This document shows positions 6,907 through 44,300 of a DNA stretch of 64,000 nucleotides, piece after piece. The stretch is taken from contig NC_092563.1 of NCBI RefSeq assembly GCF_037975245.1, positions 544,001 through 608,000 on the forward strand. Direction: 5' to 3'. Within the stretch, counting starts at the first letter, position 1. Each line of letters opens with the position of its first letter. The notes under the pieces are model-generated. The model ran no database searches. It had not been told where the DNA came from and saw only the letters and a program-made list of their open reading frames with translations. Source of the stretch: Apostichopus japonicus. Its lineage: Eukaryota > Echinodermata > Holothuroidea > Aspidochirotida > Stichopodidae. Position numbers and translations under genes: made by a program.

Positions 6907-8255
6907 GGTAGGCCTCTGTGTAAGTACGGGACTTATGGAGGAGGGCTCTAGTGATGTCTGCGATATCACCTGTGTTATATTTTCGGTGTTCCGCCTATAC
7001 TCAGGGAATTCACTCAAGAGTTCTTTGTAACATGACAAATAATCAATGTTTGGAATTCTTGTATATAAATCACGGCGCCCTACAGTTTCATGGGAGAGGC
7101 CACCCGTACCCTGCCCCGACTGATGAATGTTGCTAAGAGTGTGGTTATGTAGAATTGATAATAACCTAAGATATTGGCGAGGTGTGTGTCATGTTTCGGA
7201 TTCCAATCTAAAATATCAAGCATTGTTATGAAACATTGACCCATGCTCTTCATAACGTAGGTGTAAAGAAATATTGAGCTCCTCAACGGAAAAATTATGC
7301 TCAATATAAAATATAAATATGTACCCACCCGCCCCCCCCCCCCAAACCCAGTATTTGGAGTCAACCATGCAGTATGCCCGAGGAAATATTGTACGATGTT
7401 TAATACGTATACTCAGTCGAGAACTTCCTCGAACCTCCAATAGTCGTACAAACTGGGACTTAGGTGAGACGAAACCAGAGGACAGTAGAAAATGCAGCTT
7501 TTGTAATATTACTCTTAAAATGGAATGGAAGTGTTGACTTTTTTCGACAATCTATGTATGATACAACTTAAAGAGCAGATTCGCTACATCAGGGCCGCCG
7601 ATATGCGTTCTCCAGTCTCAATGTAACATGCTATAAAAAGTTATCGTGTGTAATCGTGTGTAACGGCCAATATTTTGTAAAGCGCTTTAGCAAATCTCTG
7701 GTAACAGTACGGTAGTCAAATGCTGTCAAAATATGTCGCGTTAGGTGGTCTCAGTGCCTCATAAAACATCACACACTCTAGGTTGTCTTTGACAGTAACA
7801 TGTATTTCGTGCATCTCAATGTACGCGCACCATAGAAATTTCTATGACGCGCACTCATCGAAATTTGTATATACGCCGACGCGCACACTCACAAGAATAT
7901 CGATAGCGTCGGTAATGTTGCAAAGTCATTGATTACATGTACATGTATCTAAATTAAAATTCAGAAAGACGCACACATTTTTCACGCGTGCATGAAATAT
8001 TTCTTTCACAATGAATTTGAGACAGTGTGACGTAACTTGAATTTACACCTTTTACGCGCGAGAGAAACTCCTTTGTTACGTAATTGGATTGCTTTTGTCG
8101 ACATATTTTCTATGTACATAGTTTATACAGTTGTGCATACTGAGAGGAAAGGCGTAAACGACAGGGTAAAATGTCCAAATGGTTTTCACTTCTTACTGAG
8201 CCGCTGTTTTAGTTCCCCGGGACAATGAAAGCAATACGGAAAGACTAGAGCTGGG

Positions 8256-9329
8256 ATGGCGAGTGAATCGTTGAGTAGTTCCGTCAATGCAAAGGACCGA
8301 GCTGCCAGTATCTTGGAAACGAACGGTTTCATATTATCGGCAACCATAGGCAGCGGCTCCTACGCGACCGTGAAGTCGGCTTACTCTCAGGTACACAAGA
8401 CCAAGGTGGCGATTAAAATAGTTTCTAAGAAGAAAGCACCGGATGATTACATCAGTAAGTTTTTACCGAGGGAGATTCAGGTGGTAAAGCTCTTGAAGCA
8501 CCCCAATCTGGTTTGCTTCATACAGAGTATTGAAACAACTAACCGTGTTTACATCGCAATGGAACTAGCGGAAAATGGGGATCTGTTAGATTTTATCAAA
8601 GGCCACGGTGCGGTACCTGAAGCCCAGACCGGTGTGTGGTTTCATCAGTTTGTTGACGGTATAGAATACTGCCATCAGCACGGCGTAGTACACCGAGATC
8701 TAAAATGCGAAAATCTTCTTCTCAACAAAAACAATGTCCTAAAAATAACGGATTTCGGATTTGCTAGGAATGGAATGCTTTCAGCTGATTCGAATCGTCC
8801 CAAGCTGAGCGAGACTTATTGCGGTAGTTACGCCTATGCACCACCTGAAATCTTGTGTGGGATACCATACAATCCTATGTTGAGCGATATTTGGAGTATG
8901 GGGGTAGTTTTATTTACCATGATGTTTGGTAGACTTCCCTATGACGATACAAATCACAAAATACTCCTACATCAAGTCCAGAAACCGCCAGTCTTTCCTC
9001 CTGGCAAAAATGTCACAGAGGACGCCAAAGACTTAATGTGTAGGATTTTATCGCCTGCGAAAAGGCGGATTCAAATGGACGAAATCAGAAAAGATCATTG
9101 GTTCAAGAGGATTGCGCCAAAAGTCAACAAAAAGTTATCTGTGCAAAATAAGAAAGAGAGCAAGGTGGAAGTCGTTGAGCCAGAGGCAATAAATAACGAC
9201 AGCACGAAGAGCAAGCAAGGAGGGACAGAGAAAGGAGCACTGGATTGGAAACCGGAGAAGAAGGAGAGTAAATCGAAAAACCAGCCGGACAATAAGACCA
9301 AGAAAGAGACAACTGCCACAGTAAAGTAG
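8256..9329 (+). CDS. Testis-specific serine/threonine kinase (TSSK family), intronless
   Basis: A 357-residue protein kinase in one exon. All core motifs are present: glycine loop IGSGSYATV (31-39), VAIK with Lys54, the helix-C Glu73 in FLPREI, catalytic loop HRDLKCEN (146-153, Asp148), DFG at 166-168, and activation segment SETYCGSYAYAPPE (185-198). HRDLKCEN and the TYCGS-type T-loop are hallmarks of TSSK kinases, which phosphorylate sperm proteins during spermiogenesis in mammals. The tail after about 295 is Lys/Glu-rich and low in complexity. Most TSSK genes are intronless, as here. The start is the first ATG of the frame and gives normal spacing to the glycine loop. Assignment to a TSSK subtype (1/2/4/6) is not attempted. 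Confidence 0.93.
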   Translation: MASESLSSSVNAKDRAASILETNGFILSATIGSGSYATVKSAYSQVHKTKVAIKIVSKKKAPDDYISKFLPREIQVVKLLKHPNLVCFIQSIETTNRVYIAMELAENGDLLDFIKGHGAVPEAQTGVWFHQFVDGIEYCHQHGVVHRDLKCENLLLNKNNVLKITDFGFARNGMLSADSNRPKLSETYCGSYAYAPPEILCGIPYNPMLSDIWSMGVVLFTMMFGRLPYDDTNHKILLHQVQKPPVFPPGKNVTEDAKDLMCRILSPAKRRIQMDEIRKDHWFKRIAPKVNKKLSVQNKKESKVEVVEPEAINNDSTKSKQGGTEKGALDWKPEKKESKSKNQPDNKTKKETTATVK

Positions 9330-29674: not shown

Positions 29675-30835
29675 TCAAAAAAGGTCTCCCTTTTTGTGTC
29701 TAGGACAGTAGCAACTGGATTTTAATTCTGCTTCCAACAAAATAGTTGTATGCTCTCTCCAATGTTTGTTTAGTGGGTAACCATTATAGAATTGCAGGTT
29801 TTTGGCTCCGTCCCTGAGTACCGTGTGTAAACATGGAATGTTCAAGTGGTGCCAGGAGAGCACAGGTCCAGCCCAGTACTCCCTGTGGTTTACAAAAGAT
29901 CTCAGATTTGGCAGATTAACACTCAAGAGAAAGAATCCTGAACTTCTCTGGATGTCTAGCTCTTCCAGGGTGGAGGATCGAAGGGTATACAGAAGATGAG
30001 AAGTACCACGCTGAAAAGGCGTCACCATCTCTATACATAGTCGTTTCAAATTTGGTAGGCCTTCGAGGAGTGCATCAATGGATGACTGGGGAATTGTAAC
30101 AAATACCCAATATTTGGAAAGTTCCAGAGTGTGTATATTTTGGAATTTGCACAATAACTCAACTGAATTCATCGACCAATCAAACTGAATCCTGAAATGC
30201 TGGATGCATGGACTCACCTCGAAGAGCTTCTGCAAAAGTTTGTGAAACGATAACACCCTGCTGTATTTGTTGTCCAGAGATGGGGAGACAGATCTCCCCT
30301 GACAATGAGGCGTGAATGCCCAACGCCCAAAAACTTTCTCCATACCTGTGCAATTTGCCCCCGTCAACAGTTGTAATATCTGGCACAACCATTGCTCACT
30401 TTCTTCGATTAAATCAAATTCAAACGAAAGCAGTTTGAGTTGAGCATTTCCCTTTGACAAAAAATTCACATACCTTTCTACTCTTGTCTTCAGATTTTTG
30501 CAAAGTGTAGAGCAGGAGTTGAACGAAATTGTTCTCACTGCAGAGGGACGTTCCAATGTCTGCTGCTTGTATATATGATATCGACTTTCACAGCATAAAA
30601 GTGGAACAAAATTTGCATTCTGCCACAGACAGGGTGTACGGAGTATTTCTGCCCAAAGTTTACACGTCGTTGATGCATCACATTTGTCTTGTGAAGACAG
30701 AAAGGAGAAAATGTGAAGGCGGCATTCTAGAGGTAAATGGTCAAAAGTCAGTATCGTTCTCTGTTTCTTTTTACATCTTTGGGTGACAGGAGATTTTACA
30801 TGATCTCTTTCATGTTGTGCCCTCTTGCATGCCAT
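29675..30835 (-). CDS. F-box protein with leucine-rich C-terminal region, intronless
   Basis: A 386-residue protein in one exon. Residues 31-72 form an F-box (FDHLPLECRLHIFSFL, then CKLWAEILRTPCLW), which binds SKP1 and links substrates to SCF ubiquitin ligases. The rest has degenerate leucine-rich segments (LKRLCIEM, LEELDIQRSS, LPNLRSF), giving a probable substrate-binding surface. A basic stretch (CKKKQR, 21-26) lies before the F-box. The layout resembles FBXO33/FBXO39-type or FBXL proteins, but I cannot name an orthologue. The start is the first ATG of a long frame. A single exon among multi-exon neighbours suggests a retrogene or merely a compact gene. It is head to head with the NECAB upstream region. 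Confidence 0.85.
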   Translation of the reverse strand: MACKRAQHERDHVKSPVTQRCKKKQRTILTFDHLPLECRLHIFSFLSSQDKCDASTTCKLWAEILRTPCLWQNANFVPLLCCESRYHIYKQQTLERPSAVRTISFNSCSTLCKNLKTRVERYVNFLSKGNAQLKLLSFEFDLIEESEQWLCQILQLLTGANCTGMEKVFGRWAFTPHCQGRSVSPSLDNKYSRVLSFHKLLQKLFEVSPCIQHFRIQFDWSMNSVELLCKFQNIHTLELSKYWVFVTIPQSSIDALLEGLPNLKRLCIEMVTPFQRGTSHLLYTLRSSTLEELDIQRSSGFFLLSVNLPNLRSFVNHREYWAGPVLSWHHLNIPCLHTVLRDGAKNLQFYNGYPLNKHWREHTTILLEAELKSSCYCPRHKKGDLF

Positions 30836-31833
30836 AGTTTATATAGCAATATGTCAATCCTGGAGAAGAAAGATGCAATTGAAGGTGAAATTCACATGTG
30901 ATGTCAGTTACTTGTGCACAAAAGGCTGGTGAAAGGACTGATTCCTCTCTATGTCACATACCTACTGGCAACCTGTATTCTTGCATAAGGAAAGAGACGA
31001 AAGAATGCAACTTTTTCGTTGTAAAAAATAGTGCAGCTCAATACATTAATATGACACATTAGAAATTTCCTCAACATTTTTTAGTGGTAAATATAATATC
31101 TGCTTGACATGGAATGATGTGTTACCATTTCAGAATAACACTTAATTCCAATGTCTATTTAGGCTAACATTAGATAATTATGTAGGTAGTCCTAACGTTA
31201 GGTGTACCACCAGGGCCACAACATGATGTATTGATTGCAAGTTGCAGCACCTGTGGTATAAAAATGAGGTTTATTACAAATTCTAAGCAAGGCCTACAGT
31301 ACTACTACTTGTACTAGTTTACTATAGCTGTTGCCTACTCAAGTTTGGCCAAGGCCTAGATATACTGTCAGTCCATGAAAAATATAGATTCCAAAACAAA
31401 AGGTCAAATCTTGGAAAAGTATTAGTTGGTCCTATCGCTAGCAGGTGTAGGATGGCACAGACACCGCTCCCAACGTATGGGGGCCTAGACCGTTGGGCCA
31501 CAAAGTACTAATAATATGTTACAAACCAATGCCCGACTGAGTGAACCGTCTACTGCTTTCGAGTTCGTTTGTCATGTCCCGTTGACCTCAGAGTTATCAT
31601 CAAGAATATCGAAAGTTGTCTTGTAAATGTGTTTAAAATACACAATATGACTGTACAAGCGGCATCAGTAACGGTATATAACAGCAAAGCTTGTCCAACT
31701 TAGGGCCGAAGCATGTTGCTTGCTCAGCGTTAGAATTGTAGTTTACTTGAACATTGAAACGCTCCATTGTTTTGGAAGTGTCAATCTGGCTGGTTCTGTA
31801 GTGGCATTACGGTCACTGCAGTTCAAATTGAGG
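30836..31833. other. Upstream region of the F-box gene and, ancestrally, of NECAB
   Basis: About 1 kb between the F-box start codon and the left end of the large transposon. It contains TAGGCCTA-like motifs and moderately GC-richer sequence at 31560-31833, consistent with a promoter. Because the sequence to the right of the transposon runs straight into the NECAB start codon, this stretch probably supplied the NECAB promoter and 5'UTR before the insertion. No coding exon is recognised. Confidence 0.5.
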
Positions 31834-31843
31834 CCGGGTGGAC
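31834..31843. repeat. Left target-site duplication of the foldback element
   Basis: CCGGGTGGAC, identical to 41324-41333. The matching bases directly abut the inverted ends of the 9.5-kb element. Confidence 0.9.
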
Positions 31844-33214
31844 ACCGGTGTGAAGTTAGATACTTATTCCCCGTTCCTCGTTCGATATTCGCGAATGAGT
31901 AACTGAGCTGCCTATTCGGTTACGTATTCGACAATTGTATCGACGTAACACCTGTGGCAAGACAAAAGCTTTCTTACAAGATGTTCAACATTTGGTCGTG
32001 GAAAGAGGTTATCTATGGCCCATGGGTCATATGAACTCCAATGACTATGTAGAAGGGTACCATAATGCATCTTGCCCGGTCCAAATAGTTCTTGACCAAC
32101 TAAAATGACCAGTACTTTATCAGTTCTTAAATTAATGTAAAAAAATTACTTTAGGCCCTAATCAAGACTAGCACGCCTTGGACCACCTTACCAATGGGTC
32201 ATATGAATTCTTAACACATTGTAGAAGGATACCATAATGCGTCTTGCCCGGTCCAAAGAGTGCTTGGCCAATTAAAATGACCATTAAATAAACATTTTTT
32301 TTAAATAAATGTAACGGGAACTGAAATAAAAACATGTGGGCCCTAATCAAGACCAGCACGCCTTGGACCGCCCAACCAATGGGTCATAGGAAATCTAAGG
32401 ACCTTGTAGAAGGGTACCATAATGCGTCTTGCCCGGTCCAAAGAGTGCTTGACCAATTTAAATGACCACTAATTCATTACTTTTTTAATGAGTGTAACGG
32501 GACCACAAAAAAGCTTTGGGCCCTAATCCATGCAGCACGCTTTGGATCACCAAACTGATGGTTAACATGAACTCTAAGGACATTGCATAAGAGTACCATA
32601 ATGCGTCTTGCCCGGTCCAAAGAGTGCTTGACCAATTTAAATGACCACTAAATCCTTACTTTTTTAATGAACGTAACGGGACCACGAAAAAGCTTTGGGC
32701 CCTAATCCATGCAGCACGCTTTAGACCACCTAACCAATCGGTAACATGTACTCTAAGGACATTGTAGAAGAGTACCATAATGCGTCTTGCCCGGTCCAAA
32801 GAGTGCTTGACCAATTTAAATGACCACTAAATCATTACTTCTTCAATGAGTGTTAAGTGACCACGAAAAAGCTTTGGGCCCTAATCCATGCAGCACGCTT
32901 TGGACCACCTAACCAATGGGTAAAATTAACTCTAAGGACATTGTAGAAGAGTACCATAATGCGTCTTGCCCGGTCCAAAGAGTGCTTGACCAATTTAAAT
33001 GACCACTAAATCATTACTTCTTCAATGAGTGTTAAGGGACCACAAAAAAGCTTTGGGCCCTAATCCATGCAGCACGCCTTGGACTACCTAACCAATCGGT
33101 AGCATTAACTCTAAGGACATTGTAGAAGAGTACCATAATGCGTCTTGCCCGGTCCAAAGAGTGCTTGACCAATTTTAATGACCACTAAATCATTACTTCT
33201 TTAATGAGTGTAAC
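31844..33214 (+). repeat. Left arm of the foldback element: outer domain plus 7 tandem repeats
   Basis: The repeats carry CCATAATGCGTCTTGCCCGG at about 32060 (variant), 32232, 32417, 32596, 32774, 32953 and 33133, giving spacings of 172, 185, 179, 178, 179 and 180 bp. The unit also contains AAAGAGTGCTTGACCAATTT and GGGCCCTAATCCATGCAGCA. The outermost two units differ most from the rest and match the outermost units of the right arm. Confidence 0.93.
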
Positions 33215-33484
33215 CTTGATGTGATTCCTTGTCACAATGAGAAATTGTATCTCGCGATCTTTATACTCCACTATACAAAACTTCGTATGATTTTGAATAC
33301 TCTAAAAAAAATGCCTAATAGAACTTCTGTACAACATATACAATTAAAACGCTCAATGCTAATCTACGGAAGCTTAAAAATGCCATCAACATAAGAAAAA
33401 CTTTGCCCCATAAGGTGAAATTTTTCTGTAAATTGTTTAGATAACAAGATAAAATGTTATCAAAAAACAGAAAAATGTTGCTTT

Positions 33485-33840
33485 GCTTACATGCTTTTAA
33501 TGAGTAATTGAACAATTTTGTGAAAAATGTTTCATTGAAAACTAATCATATCTCGTCAATTAGTCATTTTTTGCTGCAAAATGTTCAATTGTTCACTTCA
33601 TTCCATATGAGCAATTGAAAAATGTTCTGAGAAATGTTTAATTGACAACTTATCTTATCTCGTCAATTGGACATTTTTGGCAAAATGTTCAATTGTTCAC
33701 TTCATTCCAATTGAGCAATTGGAAAAATTTCTGCAAAATGTTTAATTGACAACTTATCGTATATCGTCAACTCAACATTTTTCTGCAAAATGTTTAATTG
33801 TTCACATCATTCCAAATGCTCAGTTGGAATGAAGTGAACA
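33485..33840. repeat. About 105-bp AT-rich tandem repeat in the foldback loop
   Basis: Three to four diverged copies containing AATGTTCAATTGTTCACTTC (near 33580 and 33684, with a variant near 33789), alternating with TTTAATTGACAACTTATC. The array ends with an inverted AGTTGGAATGAAGTGAACA. It is non-coding. Confidence 0.8.
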
Positions 33841-35016
33841 TTTTTTTTTATTCATGTGAGTGATAAATAGCCCCACCCCCACCCCCAAGAAAATAATATT
33901 AAGCGCGCTAGGAAAAAGCACTGTATTTTGGGGTAATTCACTATGTCGTCGAATATAGTTTGTTGAAAAAAAAGTTTCCCCTTTGTAACATTAACATAGC
34001 TTTTTTAGTCAGTAGTCTATGTAGCTTATCAAGCAGATAACTTGTACTCAGTTGCTTACTCTCTTAACCAGAGTGATTAATAAGTTTGTGAAGTGAGGGC
34101 CAGTGGTACAAATGTACCGAGAAAAGTTTGGAACAAAAGTGCAGTCGCGAAAGATACGGTGTTCGACTGACACTGACCGTATCGTTGACGAGTATAGTGG
34201 GGGGGGGGGGGGTACAAGGCAGCAGTCGGAATTTTCTGGTTCCAAAACCCATCCAGTTGGAATTTCAGCCACTAAACCCCCAATCATCAGGCCTTAGCTA
34301 CGTCCCTGAATCTAGCTATACAAATTTTACACAAAACACATTCAATCCATTAGCAAAAGTGCTAGATTTAAGGTAAATTTCGCGTTTGTTAATTTAAGTC
34401 AAAATTGCACTTTCTAATCACTTACAATTGTATTTAATGTATTAATTCTTCGGTAAATATAAATTAGGCTATATGCTGAGTCAATAATGGAAGTATAGAA
34501 GTCAAGAGAATTGTTACATGCTTAATATCCACCCCCCCCTCCCCATTTATTCTCTGATTGGATTGAAATGTACTTGCAGAAGAGAAATTTTCATGCCAAA
34601 TTACTTTAATCTGGTAGAATTGATACACTTTTACCAATCTATGTGCAAAGATGTTCCATACACTATTACTCAATACTTCATAAGATAAATTTGAAGGAGC
34701 GGAACAAAGGACCATGCGTTCTGATTGTAATTGAATGATTCATTCAGGATGTTTCCTAGAAGATTTCTCTCGTAAAAGAGCGCTTGAACATTAGGCTCGC
34801 ACTAATTGATACCGATGTACGAGCTGACTTCCTACCGTCATTTAACGTCCATGGAATTACCTTTAAAAGGCTGAGAGTTCATATTAATCATAGCGTGATT
34901 GCGCCCTTGTGTCGAACCATTAAAATTGATAGATAACTGAAATAATCTGCAGCATGTTGACAGTTTAACTGCTTTTTCCCATTTGTATTCCCAAATGAAT
35001 GAAATATCGGAATATC
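33841..35016. other. Foldback loop, left non-repetitive part
   Basis: Unique sequence with a poly-G run at 34199-34211 and a poly-C run near 34533. GCTACGTCCCTGA at about 34299 looks like the end of another small element of the type listed next, but no partner end was found. No gene is seen. Confidence 0.4.
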
Positions 35017-35506
35017 TTTCCTTCCAGGGACGTAGCCAGGGGGGGAGCAGGGGGAGCGACCGCTCCCCCCCCCTTTCAGTGTCGATTTTTTTTTTTTAAA
35101 CTGTCGTTTTTTTAGCATGGTATTTTGTCAGTGCTCTTTTGATCTTGAATACTCGTCAGCTCCGTTAACTCGATTGTAATCGTAGTAACATTCACGCCTA
35201 CTGATTCAACTACTTACTTAGTTTGGCAGATGCAATTAGCTAAATTTAGCTTATAGCCAATTACAAGCCTACAGTTGGCCACTGCGTTATAAAATACATA
35301 CTGCCTACCTAACCGCACTCTATGGAATGTCACGAACTGTATGCACAACAACGTCGACAACGTTCGTTCAATGAGTCGTCCTAAGTTGTTGCACGAACAG
35401 CATGTTATGAAGCTAAGCTAGCAATCGTACGTGATACGCACTTCCTATAAATAATTATTACACTGCTAATACACTGCGATAACGATATTTGTTTTAGGCC
35501 ACTGCA

Positions 35507-35857
35507 CAGTGGCGTAGGAAGGTACTTTTGAGTGGGGGGGGGGGGGCTGAAGACTGATGGCCGGCCTGGGGGAGGGGTCTAAGGAATTTTTTGCATTTCC
35601 AGGTGGCCTCAGATGCAATTTGGTGCAATATAGCACACTTCAACACCCACTCCATTTTGTAAACTTAATTTTGTATTTTCACCTGGCCTTAGATGCAATT
35701 TGGTTCTCCAAATGAGATTTTTTTTCTCATTTGGAAATGAAAAAGGGGTTTTCTGACTTGCGAAGCGGGGGGGCGGAATGATACTTCCGCCCCTCCACAT
35801 TTTTCACTGGGGGGGGGGGGGCTGGCGCCCCCCAGCCCCCCGGTTCCTACGCCCTTG
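35507..35857 (+). mobile_element. hAT-like MITE (GGCGTAGGAA family), copy A
   Basis: Starts CAGTGGCGTAGGAA and ends TTCCTACGCCCTTG, flanked by CCACTGCA (35499-35506 and 35858-35865). It is 351 bp and shares its interior (GCAATTTGGTGCAATATAGC, then AATGAAAAAGGGGTTTTCTG) with copies B and C. Confidence 0.9.
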
Positions 35858-36431
35858 CCACTGCATATCTGGCTGTATTACAAAATATGAAAGTTTATAT
35901 TGTCCATCAGTTAAGTTCGTCAAATGTATTTAAGTCCAGACATTGACAGTAAACAAGAATCATCCTACTGGAAAACTTGTAAAAGAGCACTATGTTTGTC
36001 TTTCTGATATATTATGTAAAAGAACATGTAAAAGAATTTAAACAGGAAACAAAATCTGCTGATGCTGATATCATATGATCAGGGCGTAACCAGTATGTAG
36101 CACGATAGTTTCATTCAACACTCTACCAGCCGAAAAAGACTATAGGATCCGATCTTAATAATAATAATATTTCAGTTGAGAAAACACTTGAAAAATTTGT
36201 ATCAGAAGGCAATCGTCGGATAGCTCTCGCCTTCTCTTATTAGGCTAACTTAAACATTTACTAGCTACAGTTGTATCAAAGACATTTCTGGACTATCTTT
36301 GTATCTACAAGTATCAGAAGTTGAAAAGTAAGACTACTCTGTACATGTACCTTCAAGGGCGGCGGAACCGGGGGGCACAGGGGGCAAGTGCCCCCCTACT
36401 TTTCCTCAGGTTAAAAATGTGCCCTTTTTCT

Positions 36432-36808
36432 CAAGGGTGTAGGAACCGGGGGGCTGGGGGGCTCCAGCCCCCCCAGTGAAAAATATGGGGGCGGAAGTAT
36501 CATTCCGCCCCCCCCCCCCGCTCCGCGAGTCAGAAAACCCCTTTTTCATTTCCAAATGAGAAAAAAATCTCATTTGGAGCACCAAATTGCATCTATAAGG
36601 CCAGGTGAAAATGCAAAATTATTTACAAAATGGATTGGGTGTTGAAGTGTGCTATATTGCACCAAATTGCATCTGAGGCCACCTGGGAATGCAAAAAAAA
36701 ATCCAAAGGGGAGGGGGACACCCCCTCCCCTTAGACCCCTCCCCCAGGCCGGCCATCAGTCATCAGCCCCCCCCCCCCCACACTCAAAAGTACCTTCCTA
36801 CGCCACTG
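36432..36808 (-). mobile_element. hAT-like MITE (GGCGTAGGAA family), copy B, reversed
   Basis: Reverse orientation: begins CAAGGGTGTAGGAA and ends TTCCTACGCCACTG, flanked by CTTTTTCT (36424-36431 and 36809-36816). It is 377 bp. Confidence 0.9.
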
Positions 36809-37397
36809 CTTTTTCTACATAAAACTTGTACTCTTGATCACCTTATTAGGTCACCGATATTTCAGTAAGAGATTTAATCCTAATTTAGAGCTATCAGGGG
36901 CGTAGCCAGTATGTAGCACTGTAGGCCCTGGCCTACACTTTTTTGGCCAAGTTATCTTTTTTATTAAAACACCCATAATTCAGATCCATAAGCTTGCTGG
37001 ACGAGTTTAAGAGTCTAGACAGGAAAAACTATTGAAATGAACGTAGCAAGATTATGGCTAAATTAGGTGACCTATTCTTCTGTCATCTAGGCTGTCATTC
37101 ATATCGCGTGCCGTTTCATTCAATACTCTACCCGCCGAAAAAGACTAGGATACGATCTTGTCAGTTTTTTAACATCTACTTAAGAACCCGTTTACGCAGA
37201 TAAAATTTCAGTTGAGAACATTCCACAGTCAAATAAGCCTATCGTTGATTAACAGACTTTATATGTATAGAGCTGCAGCACTTTGTTGCCTGTTGTTGTC
37301 ACGATCGGCGTTCCAAGTTCCAAAACAGCCTTTTCGATAAACATTTACTAGCTACAGTTGTATCAAAGACAAATACTGGCTATGGTTGTATCAAAGA

Positions 37398-37766
37398 CAG
37401 TGGCGTAGGAAGGTACTTTTCAGTGGGGGGGGGGGCTGAAGACTGATGGCCGGCCTGGGGGAGGGGTCTAAGGGGAGGGGGTGTCCCCCTCCCCTTTGGA
37501 TTTTTTTTGCATTTCCAGGTGGCCTTAGATGCAATTTGGTGCAATATAGCACAATTCAACCCACCCACTCCATTTTGTAAAGAATTTTGCATTTTCACCT
37601 GGCCTTAGATGCAATTTGGTGCTTCAAATGAGATTTTTTTCTCATTTGGAAATGAAAAAGGGGTTTTCTGACTTGCGGAGCGGGGGGGGCGGAACGATAC
37701 TTCCGCCCCCCATATTTTTCACTGGGGGGGCTGGCGCCCCCAGCCCCCCCGGTTCCTACGCCCTTG
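37398..37766 (+). mobile_element. hAT-like MITE (GGCGTAGGAA family), copy C
   Basis: Begins CAGTGGCGTAGGAA and ends TTCCTACGCCCTTG, flanked by ATCAAAGA (37390-37397 and 37767-37774). It is 369 bp and very similar to copy B in reverse. Confidence 0.9.
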
Positions 37767-38328
37767 ATCAAAGACATTTCTGGCCTATCTTTGTATCTAC
37801 AAGTATCAGAAGTTGAAAAGTAAGACTACTAAGACGGGGGGGGGGGGGGGGCGTTGATGGAGTGATGTGTATACGCAAATAAGATAATACAATAAGATTT
37901 ATAAAGGGTACTAAATATCAGGCTGCATCATTCCAATCGAATTTCTGCAAAGTGCCCTTTAACGTCGGTGCCCCCCCCCCCCAGATTAAAAGTGCTTCCG
38001 CCGCCCTTGTGTAACTTGCTAATTTTAATACATTATGTATTATTGAATTACGTACTATTTTAACTCGTTTGTTTTTTGGGTTTAAAAGTGATATTGAATG
38101 AGGTGTCTCAAGTTAGCAAGAGGCCAGGGAACCAGAATGAACACTAGGGAAGGGCCGTTTCCGGCCATCTGGGGGGTTTGTAAAACCAAAAATTTTCTTG
38201 TACGCTCCGCGCCAACCGATGGTGGCGCTCCGCTCAGATAGTCGTGCCTACAACTTTGAAAATCCATATCAATCGCAAAAAGTGCTCCCCCCCCCTTTCA
38301 AATTCCTGGCTACGTCGCTGTTTCCTTC

Positions 38329-38877
38329 TACGAATGTCTCTGACCCACGTTAGGAGAGTTAAAGTGATATTGTTCAATGTTTGAACGTTACTGCATGTAC
38401 CATTAATGCATGGTACTTGGTAGGCCTATATAGGGGATGGTTTATTTCATTGTTTGTCCGGCTGTAAGCTTCATAAGCTTCATTGGGCTATCATGACAGT
38501 GCATGCCTGCTACAAGCCTGCTACAGCCTTGCTACGGCCTTGCTACAGCCCTAGAAAGATGCTGTCACTTTATGCCATCGTGTTCAAATAGCTGCCACAT
38601 TGCAATTTTCCCCTTTTGATTAGGCTGAAATTTCGTAAGTCATTTGAGCAAGTTAGAGTCTTATATGCTAACATATCGATGAATTCGGAAGTCATTTAGA
38701 GGCTTTCTTAAATTGTAAAAACTTTCCGACACAATTTGGCCATGTATATAGACATGCTGCCATTAATTAGAATGCACTTAAAACGAGTTCTCTCTTTTTC
38801 ATTCCTTGAGGTTCCAAAGTGCAATTTGTAATGCTACCGGTGGACACTAAACGCACGATACATAACATATGAGATGG
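38329..38877. other. Foldback loop, right non-repetitive part
   Basis: Unique sequence between the nested elements and the right arm. It has four short CTTGCTACAGCC/CCTGCTACAGCC-like repeats at 38506-38552. No gene is seen. Confidence 0.45.
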
Positions 38878-41323
38878 ACACTCATTTAAGAAGTGATGAT
38901 GTAGTGGTCATTTAAATTGGTCAAGCACTCTTTGGACCGGGCAAGACGCATTATGGTACTCTTCTACACTGTCTTAAAAAATCATATGACCCATCGGTTA
39001 GGTGGTCCAAGGCGTTCTGGTCTTGATTAGGGCCCAAATGCTTTTTATTCGTGATCCTGTTACATTAATTTAAGAAGTGATGATTTAATGGTCAGTTTAA
39101 TTGGTCAAGCACTCTTTGGACCGGGCAAGACGCATTATGGTACTTTTCTACAATGTCCTTAGAGTTCATGTTGACCATCGGTTTGGTGATCCAAGGCGTG
39201 CTGCTTTGATTAGGGCCCAAAGTTTTTTCGTGGTCCTGTTACACTTGATGATGTAGTAATGATTTAGTGGTCATTTAAATTGGTCAAGCACTCTTTGGAC
39301 CGGGCAAGACGCATTATGGTACTCTTCTACAATGTCCTTAGAGTTAATTTTACCCATTGGATAGGTGGTCCAAGGTGCGCTGCGTGGATTAGGGCCCAAA
39401 GCTTTTCGTTGTCCCGTTACACTCATTAAAGAAGTAATGATTTAGTGGTCATTTAAATTGGTCAAGCACTCTTTGGACCGGGCAAGACGCATTATGGTAC
39501 TCTTCTACAATGTCTTTAGAGTACATGTTACCGATTAATTTGTTGGTCCAAGGCGTGCTGCATGGATTAGGGCCCAAAGCTTTTTCGTGGTCCCGTTACA
39601 CTCATTGAAGAAGTAATGATTTAGTGGTCATTTAAATTTGGTCAAGCACTCTTTGGACCGGGCAAGAGGCATTATGTTACCCTTCTACAATGTCCTTCGA
39701 GTACATGTTACCGATTGGTTAGGTGTTCCAAGGCGTGCTGCATGGATTAGGGCCCAAAGTTTTTTCGTGGTCCCGTTACACTCATTAAAAAAGTAATGAT
39801 TTAGTGGTCATTTAAATTGGTCAAGCACTCTTTGGACCGGGCAAGACGCATTATGGTACTCTTCTACAATGTCCTTAGAGTTAATTTTACCCATTGGATA
39901 GGCGGTCCAAGGCGCGCTGCGTGGATTAGGGCCCAAAGTTTTTTCGTGGTCCCTTTACACTCATTAAAGAAGTAATGATTTAGTGGTCATTTAAATTGGT
40001 CAAGCACGCTTTGGACCGGGCAAGACGCATTATGGTACTCTTCTACAATGTCTTTAGAGTACATGTTACCGATTAATTTGTTGGTCCAAGGCGTGCTGCA
40101 TGGATTAGGGCCCAAAGCTTTTTCGTGGTCCCGTTACACTCATTGAAGAAGTAATGATTTAGTGGTCATTTAAATTGGTCAAGCACTCTTTGGACCGGGC
40201 AAGAGGCATTATGTTACCCTTCTACAATGTCCTTCGAGTACATGTTACCGATTGGTTAGGTGGTCCAAGGCGTGCTGCATGGATTAGGGCCCAAAGTTTT
40301 TTCGTGGTCCCGTTACACTCATTAAAAAAGTAATGATTTAGTGGTCATTTAAATTGGTCAAGCACTCTTTGGACCGGGCAAGACGCATTATGGTACTCTT
40401 CTACAATGTCTTTAGAGTTAATGTTACCCATTGGTTAGGTGGTCCAAGGCGTGCTGCATGGATTAGGGCCCAAAGCTTTTCGTGGTCCCGTTACACTCAT
40501 TAAAGAAGTAATGATTTAGTGGTCATTTAAATTGGTCAAGCACTCTTTGGACCGGGCAAGACGCATGATGGTACTCTTATGCAATGTCCTTAGAGTTAAT
40601 GTTAACCATCGGTTTGGTGATGCAATGCGTGCTGCATGGATTAGGGCCCAAAGCTTTTTCGTGGTCCCGTTACACTCATCGGAAAAAGTAATGAATTAGT
40701 GCTCATTTAAATTGGTCAAGCACTCTTTGGACCGGGCAAGCACATTATGGTACCCTTCTACAAGGTCCTTAGACTTCCTATGACCTATTGGTTGGGCGGT
40801 CCAAGGCGTGCTGGTCTTGATTAGGGCCCAAATGTTTTTATTTCAGTTCCCGTTACATTTATTTGAAAAAAAAATTATTTAATGGTCATTTTAATTGGCC
40901 AAGCACTCTTTGGACCGGGCAAGACGCATTATGGTATCCTTCTACAATGTGTTAAGAATTCATATGACCCATTGGTAAGGTGGTCCAAGGCGTGCTAGTC
41001 TTGATTAGGGCCTAAAGTAATTGTTTTACATTAATTTAAGAACTGATGAAGTACTGGTCATTTTAGTTGGTCAAGAACTATTTGGACCGGGCAAGATGCA
41101 TTATGGTACCCTTCTACATAGTCATTGGAGTTCATATGACCCATGGGCCATAGATAAACCTCTTTCCACGACCAAATGTTGAACATCTTGTAAGAAAGCT
41201 TTTGTCTTGCCACAGGTGTTACGTCGATACAATTGTCGAATACGTAACCGAATAGGCAGCTCAGTTACTCATTCGCGAATATCGAACGAGGAACGGGGAA
41301 TAAGTATCTAACTTCACACCGGT
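38878..41323 (-). repeat. Right arm of the foldback element: 13 tandem repeats plus outer domain
   Basis: Reverse-complement repeats carry GGGCAAGACGCATTATGG at spacings of about 179 bp, with GCATTATGG or a variant near 38948, 39132, 39311, 39489, 39669, 39848, 40027, 40206, 40385, 40563, 40742, 40926 and 41098. Units at 39311, 39489 and 39669 recur in the same order at 39848, 40027 and 40206, so a three-unit block of about 537 bp was itself duplicated. The outer 180 bp is unique and mirrors 31844-32020. Confidence 0.93.
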
Positions 41324-41333
41324 CCGGGTGGAC
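41324..41333. repeat. Right target-site duplication of the foldback element
   Basis: CCGGGTGGAC, identical to 31834-31843, followed directly by GCAAAACATCAC in the NECAB leader. Confidence 0.9.
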
Positions 41334-41359: not shown

Positions 41360-44300
41360 ATGTCTTCAACAGAGAGTGAAACTGGAAAGGGCATGTCAAT
41401 ATTTCTTGATGTGAGTATCTTACTTTATTGTTTCACATTTATTTGACGGTAGAATAGAAAAGGCATTCCGAAATCCATGTGACATTGTCAAACCTATGAT
41501 AGGTTTGTCCCAGTCCAGTCAGTGGGGATGGTAGTACTATTACTAATAGTAGCAAACCAACGCAAATTACAGTGTAGTATAGTGTATAGTGCTAGTAGTA
41601 GGGCCTATGTGGGAGCGTACTTTAAACTATACTAAATTTTCTAGTAAAAATTTAAATTTATATATAAAATATATAAATAATATATATAGCATAGGTTCAA
41701 ATGTTCACTTCCTGTTGCCAGAGTGCTCAATACACATGAGCAGAGCAAATAGTATATCTATATGGTAACTTTCAGCTTGTCCTACGCCCCAAAGATAAAA
41801 AAAAAGAAAAAAGCAGAGCTCATTTCAAAGTGTCGTAATGGTAACAAACCCCCAAACTGCGCCAGGAAGGAATAAGAACACGCTACCGTCTCCATTTCAT
41901 TCAGTTATATATGCTATTGTACTGGTTGCTGCCACTAATTTTGTCTTTCTGGTTACATTGGCAGGTCTTCCGTAGGGCAGATAAAAATGGTAAGTTCCTA
42001 GTTAAGCTAAATGGTTATTAATTATTATAAATCATAAAACAAAACTACAGTATGAAATGTTTCCCAGGAAGTGAATGAATACCGTATTGAAGAACTTAGT
42101 ATGCGAGACTCCGGATGTAAGGCGTTATTAAATTGCAGGGCCTCCCTTGTATCGCTTTCAGTTTGTAACAGGATTCTACTCATAATGTGTAAGGTTGATA
42201 CGTAATATACAGTTTTGGATAGTCAATTGAGAACTTAAAGGCAGAATACATACAAAAAACCTGTGTTCCGTATAAGTCTTCTGCTGTGCTAGAAGTTATT
42301 TTCTTTATAGATATATTTCCACTTTTGTTTTTATTTAAAGTTAACTTAATTAGCCCTATCGACATAATGGTACTAACCAAAGCTTCAGGTACATGGACTA
42401 TTGTATAGGGGGTTACTAATTTCTGTATCAAACGAAACATATCTTAACATTTAAAGACATGTTAAGCATGTACCAAGTACAATTTTAATGTTCCTTTAAT
42501 AATTTATTCTATTTGTTGAATGTTTTTTTCTAACATTGACAAATAGTGCAGACAGACCCTATGATTCTAGTAGTAGCAACCTTTCTGAGATATAACAGTC
42601 TGCCGAAAGGATTGTACCAAACAAAGTCTTCGGCTTTGAGTACAGTGTTTCAGTATGTTGCCGTTCTGGACGAATCAAATCGTAATTACCGACTTTGCGA
42701 TCCGTGTCATCGTCATTGCCGACTTTTTAATCCAAGGTGCCCCTCGCAATTTTGCAAGGTCGGTAAGAGTGACTCCACAGTACAAGCAAATTTTCACTAC
42801 TTTTCGATGATTGGATAAATGTAAGAATCATTAAAGATAAGAAAGTTATTACAACGTCAACATAAAATAATTAATTTGTCATTAAATGCATAAAATTACT
42901 TTACTATTGTAGGATCCTGTGTTAGTTTCCTTCATTGGTTTTCCCTATTTTTTTCTTTAGATGACAATTGCCTGTCCAGGGAGGAATTCCAATCTTTCTT
43001 CTCTGATGGAATTCTGAAACCTGATGAATTGGAGGAGCTGTTCAATAAGATTGACACACACAAGTCTAACAATATTGACACTGGAGAACTGAGCAGTAAG
43101 TTTACATTTGAAAAGTGTGTAGGTTTTTTGGTAACATGACATAACATAATAAAACATGACATAACATTATAAAACATGACATAACATAATAAAATATGAC
43201 ATAACATAATAAAACATGACACAAGCATGGACTTTGAGACACCAAGACCATCTTTAAATCACCTTACATTTAAGTTTTCAAATATTGCTCCCCAAAACAT
43301 GTAGCTGTCAACGTAAAAAATAATTGTAATCAACCATCTTATCAGTATTTACAAATTGGAAATGATTGAATGAGTGGTAAAATAGACCATTATCCTATAT
43401 GATAATTAAATTTGCTGTTTGTTTTGTTTATTTATTCATTTACAGCTTATTTCTCCAGTCAACTTGGACCCTTCAGGGCCATATTTGGGACCATTGAGGA
43501 ACTGTCTCAAGGAGTATCAAATGCTTTACAAGACACTGCTCAAGTAAGTAAAAATATGTGTTAATTTAGTACTGTTAACTAAAGCAAGATTTAGTGTATA
43601 AAACTTGTAATTGTGTTTATGTGTTATTACTAAATGGATGTATCTTCTGATGGGTTTTATTGTGGTTTGCTATATTACTTGGTGATGACAACAACTTTAA
43701 CAGTTGTTGATGTCGAACCAATTATTGTAGATATATTACTTCCCTGGCACTTTCTTGGCTTTCTTAAAATGAAACTGGAATGTGATTCTTTGTCATGGAG
43801 TTACACAATGGTATAATTGGTGATGGGTTCTACTTAAGCACATTACCAGGAGGGAACTAAGTTAAAATGATAAATGAAGAGCTCAGTTGGTAGAGTGTGC
43901 AAAGATCTTGAACCACTGGGTCACTAAGTTCCATGCCATAAAAATATAGATTGCTGATGCAAAATTTGGGTAGGATTTTGAAGTGAAATCTATATCATTG
44001 AATTTTCAGGGGTGCACGCTGGTAATAATCTGTACCATCAGTTACAGATGAAAGGAATGTGAAATTTGCAGAAAGAAAGAAACATTTCAATCTTTTCTTT
44101 TTGTTAAACTGTTTTTTTGTTTGATAGGAATATCCAAAGAAATCATTCTATGATCAATTTACTGTGAGGTTCATGATGAAAGAAATATCTACCCAGCTGG
44201 CTGCCGTACAGCAGAGTTTAGAAACAGCTGCGGACCATCTTGAGGCTGATGCACTGAAAGACAGGTAAATATGCCATTGGGCAGGAGAGTTATTTGAATG

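Follow-up and report, generated by a model that had tools for sequence, protein, structure and literature searches.

Foldback elements have long been known, and both their transposases and the rules by which they choose targets are poorly understood. The Drosophila FB and sea urchin TU elements are built with tandem units in their arms, and the same foldback architecture is found in a 9,480-bp element located in front of the NECAB gene of the echinoderm Apostichopus japonicus. This element occupies positions 31844 to 41323 of a 64,000-nucleotide stretch of contig NC_092563.1 (assembly GCF_037975245.1, positions 544,001 to 608,000), which is called the window below. A first-pass annotation, made from the sequence alone, had named FB and TU as its relatives, and this holds for the foldback architecture. 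It does not extend to the details of TU, where duplications of 8 bp and short units are characteristic, as the family described here has duplications of 9 to 10 bp and units of 179 bp; the units of FB are likewise much shorter.

Several transposons described in the literature resemble the family in other respects. Tetris, a foldback element of Drosophila virilis, has a tip, tandem units of ~220 bp, a gene-free middle domain and 8–10-bp duplications, and was assigned to Mutator partly on duplication length; its authors found no transposase, and the passages of the article considered here do not mention a remote target motif (PMC4079207). The likeness to Tetris is one of architecture and duplication length. 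The nematode Mutator/foldback element Tm1 has long arms and duplications of 8–10 bp, mostly 9 bp, but the pertinent passages describe these duplications as having no clear consensus (PMC3169594). Galileo, from the P superfamily, combines long arms with a target motif, yet its motif is given in the part of the article considered as a palindrome of 15 bp with a 7-bp duplication at its centre (PMC4168063), and neither a 7–8-bp duplication nor a centred palindromic motif is found in the family.

Rehavkus, as characterized in the available excerpt of its description, has 9-bp duplications, a PHD finger accompanying the transposase, and a minisatellite within the element, but its hosts are given there as arthropods and annelids alone, and its minisatellite precedes the 3′ end (PMC6446971). 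In the present family, by contrast, 179-bp units run through both arms, in an echinoderm host. Duplications of exactly 9 bp bound 10 of its 12 duplication-bounded insertions, and a PHD finger is present in a decayed copy on C16, that stretch being missing in a second copy on C17. Moreover, the family has both the long terminal inverted repeats and the 8–11-bp duplications of the Mutator-like element (MULE) superfamily, the latter range being quoted in the same excerpt (PMC6446971). Taken together, the PHD finger, the 9-bp duplication and the minisatellite point to the Rehavkus/foldback side of Mutator-like elements, with Rehavkus compared by its published description.

As a whole, the evidence is best read as follows: the window element is probably a non-autonomous foldback member of a cut-and-paste DNA transposon family, whose transposase is supplied from elsewhere and whose insertions have a target motif 23 bp outside the duplication; the element itself would have entered the site before NECAB recently. 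The tips and the 179-bp arrays, which are common to the copies read, would then be the sequences on which a transposase encoded elsewhere acts. The element consists of the following parts:

31834–31843, no strand: left target-site duplication, CCGGGTGGAC
31844–32021, forward strand: left tip (flanking domain), 178 bp
32022–33214, forward strand: left array, 6.7 units of 179 bp
33215–38877, forward strand: middle domain
38878–41145, reverse strand: right array, 12.6 units of 179 bp, inverted (to 41135 according to the repeat finder)
41146–41323, reverse strand: right tip (flanking domain)
41324–41333, no strand: right target-site duplication, CCGGGTGGAC

The foldback architecture is confirmed: a middle domain is enclosed by long inverted arms, each comprising a tip followed by tandem units. 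The tip sequence ACCGGTGTGAAGTTAG starts at 31844 on the forward strand and at 41323 on the reverse strand, and the duplications that bound the element are perfect over 10 bp. Within the 64-kb window, CCGGGTGGAC is present only at 31834 and 41324, and the chance of an exact 10-bp match at a fixed register is ~2e-6. The two arms are 100% complementary over their outer 167 bp; by about position 430 they have come to differ by two substitutions and an indel of 1 bp, and identity over the 1,370 bp of the arms is 95.5%. The inverted ends, inverted arrays, perfect 10-bp duplication, roughly three differences in some 400 outer bp, and the NECAB start codon 26 bp past the duplication, all reported by the first-pass annotation, are found in the sequence as described. 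Its identification of a foldback transposon in the NECAB 5′ region is supported by the arms, the arrays, the duplication, and matches to a NECAB peptide.

The family was sought in the A. japonicus assembly (671,581,487 bases in 35 contigs), where it comprises dozens of copies. A search with the tip, in which 40 of 439 candidates were scored, gave 43 near-full-length ends: the window's own pair, and others that are 93–99% identical; a third tip query of the genome added zero new ends. For the middle domain, all 40 scored places matched, window included, out of 1,454 candidates. In eight other copies this domain is 3.2–3.5 kb long, is mutually 96.4–99.4% identical, and contains ~1.1 kb that the window copy lacks at the left side, the window copy having in turn an extra 3.3-kb hAT-like insertion that is absent from these eight. 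A coding function of the middle domain was considered and rejected: the plurality sequence of the eight copies has no frame longer than 109 aa, and eight frames of one copy gave zero Pfam matches over the cut-off. In the window copy, the two longest frames of the non-nested middle domain likewise have no Pfam match.

Among 72 flanks, 12 distinct duplication-bounded insertions were recognized, with the window counted and two C2 copies with common flanks taken as one insertion. Apart from the ten duplications of exactly 9 bp, C7 has 9 bp plus one extra base and the window has 10 bp; the enzyme would usually cut with a 9-bp stagger, and with one of 10 bp at the window. The earlier suggestion of an undescribed family is upheld in part. 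Among the open PubMed Central papers searched, no description of the family was seen, with Repbase and Dfam outside that scope; to that extent the family is undescribed, and it now has its own copies, target duplications, and a putative transposase. The idea that a 10-bp duplication marks it was not borne out, 9 bp being the rule and the window the exception.

Some family members have more complex arrangements. At C20:12259147-12294360 (L030, L053), a stretch of 35.2 kb, flanked by family ends and exact 9-bp duplications, encloses a further left end and is a candidate macrotransposon; large FB-borne segments are known in Drosophila. At C8:39674578 and C8:39686723 (L024, L025), the same 9-mer is found inverted beside two ends, and two C8 tips stand back to back 3 bp apart, an arrangement that shows signs of an inversion or of joined ends. 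Two family ends are also placed back to back near 5.149 Mb of C16, with 9 bp between them. At C20:25197840-25198100 (L082), two tip-like sequences are 52 bp apart and the outer one is diverged, as if an element had been inserted into an older tip. Additionally, a repeat family more than 420 bp long is an insertion hot spot, in which 11 of the 72 flanks fall at almost the same position (L023, L026, L027, L030, L033, L034, L042, L044, L046, L047, and L048); Rfam at the gathering threshold gave zero matches in four loci with this repeat.

The transposase gene would survive as decayed copies in two family members, one of them with the PHD finger. The C16 copy (5221871-5239161, duplication GTTTCAACT) contains 7.9 kb with a decayed gene between its middle domain and right array. 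This gene includes a PHD finger (PF00628, 26.1 bits against a Pfam cut-off of 24) and a 368-aa frame that holds a putative transposase core. The core has one other copy more than 90% identical in the genome, the C17 copy, which is 94% identical and located ~7.3 kb inside a family tip, the tip being followed by 179-bp units. Distant relatives of the core (22–36% to the C17 frame) have long open frames; in one of them, L089 (C20:28374139-28375209), the frame also encodes a ubiquitin carboxyl-terminal hydrolase domain. In alignment A1, composed of ten sequences, the first two D residues do not vary, and an E, by our own reading of the alignment, is present in the eight rows reaching that position. 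The core is likely a DDE-type enzyme with D, D, and E, and the decayed gene is likely the family transposase; among solved structures, none matched the core at E up to 1. The window copy itself is non-autonomous.

It is fairly unlikely that the PHD/DDE gene is instead a separate transposon nested in two copies, with the true transposase being another one, such as a standard MULE. Such a reading would account for the PHD finger being seen in one copy only and for the lack of the gene in the other middle domains read, and the genome does contain 38 MULE-domain matches, of which two lie at 3 to 7 kb from family copies. However, these two nearby MULE genes, considered as the family transposase and rejected, are both outside the element parts seen. 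The C16 and C17 genes are at similar depths from a family tip (~7.9 and 7.3 kb), the 7.9-kb stretch of C16 is placed exactly at the junction between middle domain and array of the other copies, and none of the 25 longest of 49 inverted pairs frames the C16 gene. The assignment of the gene to the foldback family is accordingly preferred here.

The age of the window copy can be approached through insertions nested in its middle domain. The first-pass annotation missed all four of them, each of which has an 8-bp duplication; the three smaller ones, miniature inverted-repeat transposable elements (MITEs), are all inside the largest one, which we take to be hAT-like from its ends and duplication:

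35025–38320, forward strand: nested 3.3-kb hAT-like element, defined by ends and 8-bp duplication TTTCCTTC
35507–35857, forward strand: nested hAT-like MITE, 8-bp duplication CCACTGCA
36432–36808, reverse strand: nested hAT-like MITE, 8-bp duplication CTTTTTCT
37398–37766, forward strand: third nested hAT-like MITE, 8-bp duplication ATCAAAGA

A near-sister copy on C13 carries the 3.3-kb hAT-like insertion at the identical site, which is uninterrupted in L019, L029, and L036. The same hAT-like element is also present at C15:13932872-13946152 (L022, L023), as an independent inverted insertion elsewhere in the middle domain. The third MITE is missing from C13, where a 377-bp gap corresponds exactly to the MITE plus one duplication and a single ATCAAAGA is kept. 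Because of the common hAT-like site and the single ATCAAAGA in C13, the window and C13 copies most likely descend from one parent that already held the 3.3-kb insertion, and the small MITE would have entered the window copy later. Between the two copies, 4 of 1,808 and 5 of 542 aligned bases differ in the middle domain (9/2,350 in total), together with 17 of 2,887 in the hAT-like segment; the tips have 0 substitutions in 355 positions and two 1-bp indels.

Heterozygosity of A. japonicus is given, in the consulted part of the genome article, as 1.59% by k-mers and 0.73% by mapping (PMC5638244). Since the 9/2,350 middle-domain differences from the C13 sister can be set against these values, the NECAB insertion looks recent, and from the same values it may well be polymorphic in the species. 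The earlier view of a young insertion is retained on this ground, and its original reasoning from the match between the two arms is abandoned. In all eight other two-armed copies compared (C10, C12, C15, C16:45.4M, C3:13.4M, C7, C9:35.5M, and C20:12.3M), each arm is nearer to arms of different copies than to its own partner. C8:39.7M and C20:28.6M, excluded from this comparison as rearranged, behave alike, and along 440 bp no substitution separates the right arm of the window copy from the left arm of C13. Arm identity was ruled out as an age clock by these cross-copy matches, because arms are exchanged between copies or inherited separately.

Such exchange could also suggest that the window element is old and fixed, that it is kept sister-like by gene conversion, and that NECAB has long been on a new promoter; the time available for a MITE to enter the window copy after the split would fit this as well. 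This explanation is nevertheless unlikely, as the unique middle domain and the hAT segment are also near-identical to the sister, and the target duplication is still perfect.

Target choice by the family appears to involve a short motif at a set distance, which in the window is:

31811–31816, forward strand: GGTCAC, candidate family target motif, upstream of the duplication by 23 bp as counted from its first G

For the motif scan, 72 flanks of 75 bp were used, four others that are themselves element ends having been dropped beforehand, and flanks with any common 14-mer were merged, giving 53 clusters. GG starts exactly 32 bp from the tip (-32) in 20 of the 53 clusters against a background of 3.8% (p 2e-15), the runner-up position, -33, having it in eight; in 5,000 rotations the best-position count never exceeded 12. 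When the count starts at the outer boundary of the duplication, the spacing becomes 23 bp; the window, with its 10-bp duplication and GG at -33, conforms to it. GG stands 23 bp outside the duplication, on one side or both, in each of the 12 duplication-bounded insertions (on both in C7, C10, and C12), and in 9 of 9 once four insertions in one repeat are reduced to one; the best other GG offset reaches 5/12, or 3/9 after this reduction. The flanks outside the 12 complete insertions form 37 clusters, of which 11 have GG at -32, with a background of ~4%. The consensus is loose, namely GG, then T or C, then any of C, A, or T, then A, and often C. One 179-bp unit contains three GGTCA on one strand, a post hoc count matched by 0.1% of 2,000 shuffles. 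A stricter form, GG[TC][ACT]AC, also counted post hoc, was rejected as not significant, its two copies in the unit being reached by 6.6% of shuffles.

It is possible, and is suggested here tentatively, that an animal cut-and-paste transposon picks its target through a short directional motif (approximately TGGTCAC) and cuts 23 bp away, that one motif suffices while two inward-facing motifs stand around some insertions, and that the 179-bp arms are arrays of GGTCA-like sites for the same protein. Target choice would then depend on a motif whose first G is 23 bp outside the duplication on one or both sides, as with GGTCAC at 31811. The transposase or a partner would bind the motif, thereby setting the cut about two helical turns away. 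Bacterial Tn7 also inserts at a set distance from a recognised site; its machinery is unrelated, and the comparison is an analogy only. A set-distance target motif, if true, would be unusual for a eukaryotic cut-and-paste element, because target-site motifs of transposable elements are described, in the part of the article considered, as always being palindromes extending beyond the duplication (PMC4168063). It is quite improbable that GG goes unread by the transposition machinery and is a mark of older repeats that the family enters by accident, the count being inflated by shared repeats: beside the hot-spot repeat there are six further groups with common flanks, but the signal persists after 14-mer clustering and repeat reduction, and the insertion at C16:5239161, inside the shared repeat, uses a different GGT 13 bp further out, still at 23 bp.

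Several results weigh against the proposed reading of a transposon family with its own enzyme and target motif. Both transposase copies are broken, the C17 copy is without the stretch that carries the PHD finger in C16, and one end only of the C17 element was found, the second end not being located. Pfam over the cut-off gives zero matches to the core, the MULE transposase domain PF10551 included, and the core profile compared with MULE proteins of this genome is not significant (probability 1.6%, E 0.031), with the first two D residues aligned. The motif position was discovered on the first 45 flanks, which contain every motif-bearing flank of the 12 complete insertions. Of the 21 clusters fetched only later, four have GG at -32 and nine have it between -34 and -30, a signal that is weaker and still above background, and ~60% of all clusters are without GG at -32. 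Moreover, at least six adjacent end pairs have no duplication (C16:45.4M, C9:35.5M, C15:5.7M, C1:16.9M, C20:28.6M, and C8:39.7M). The arrays of the window and C13 diverge more than their other parts, by 63/1,192 and 50/1,552 aligned bases plus gains or losses of one or two units. All family and motif evidence comes from this one species.

The gene next to the element, and its divergent neighbour, are located as follows:

29675–30838, reverse strand: F-box protein gene, divergent neighbour of NECAB
41360–41410, forward strand: NECAB first coding exon (MSSTESETGKGMSIFLD)

The NECAB start codon is at 41360, 26 bp past the right duplication, and removal of the element with one duplication rejoins the flanks. 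A search with a NECAB1 peptide gave, among many chance matches, collinear stretches at 41384, 41965, 42960, 43448, 44131, 45074, and 45629, three of the seven being strong alone (E 1e-12 to 1e-4). For the first exon (E 0.51), support comes from 9 of 10 identical residues and from its location, and Pfam finds an EF-hand in the frame at 42894-43139. With the element excluded, the DNA upstream of NECAB as far as the F-box gene amounts to ~1.0 kb, and the insertion displaced it by 9.5 kb. Inspection by eye of the 26 bp between duplication and start codon found no convincing splice acceptor, so NECAB transcription must begin within this 26-bp stretch, begin inside the element, or read in from upstream. 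Silencing of the allele, splicing out of the element or use of an internal promoter, as put forward by the first-pass annotation, are possible effects. The CpG content of the upstream flank was rejected as proof of a NECAB promoter, being weak evidence, with 24 of 229 control windows equally high. Elsewhere in the window, positions 8229-9329 hold a long unbroken protein kinase frame (Pfam Pkinase), presumably of the testis-specific serine kinase type.

The family offers a single system for joint tests of its tips and arrays, its likely transposase gene and its proposed rule of target choice. It may extend PHD-type, Rehavkus-like transposons to an echinoderm. The insertion before NECAB is a natural experiment on the gene of a neuronal calcium-binding protein, in what is probably a farmed animal.

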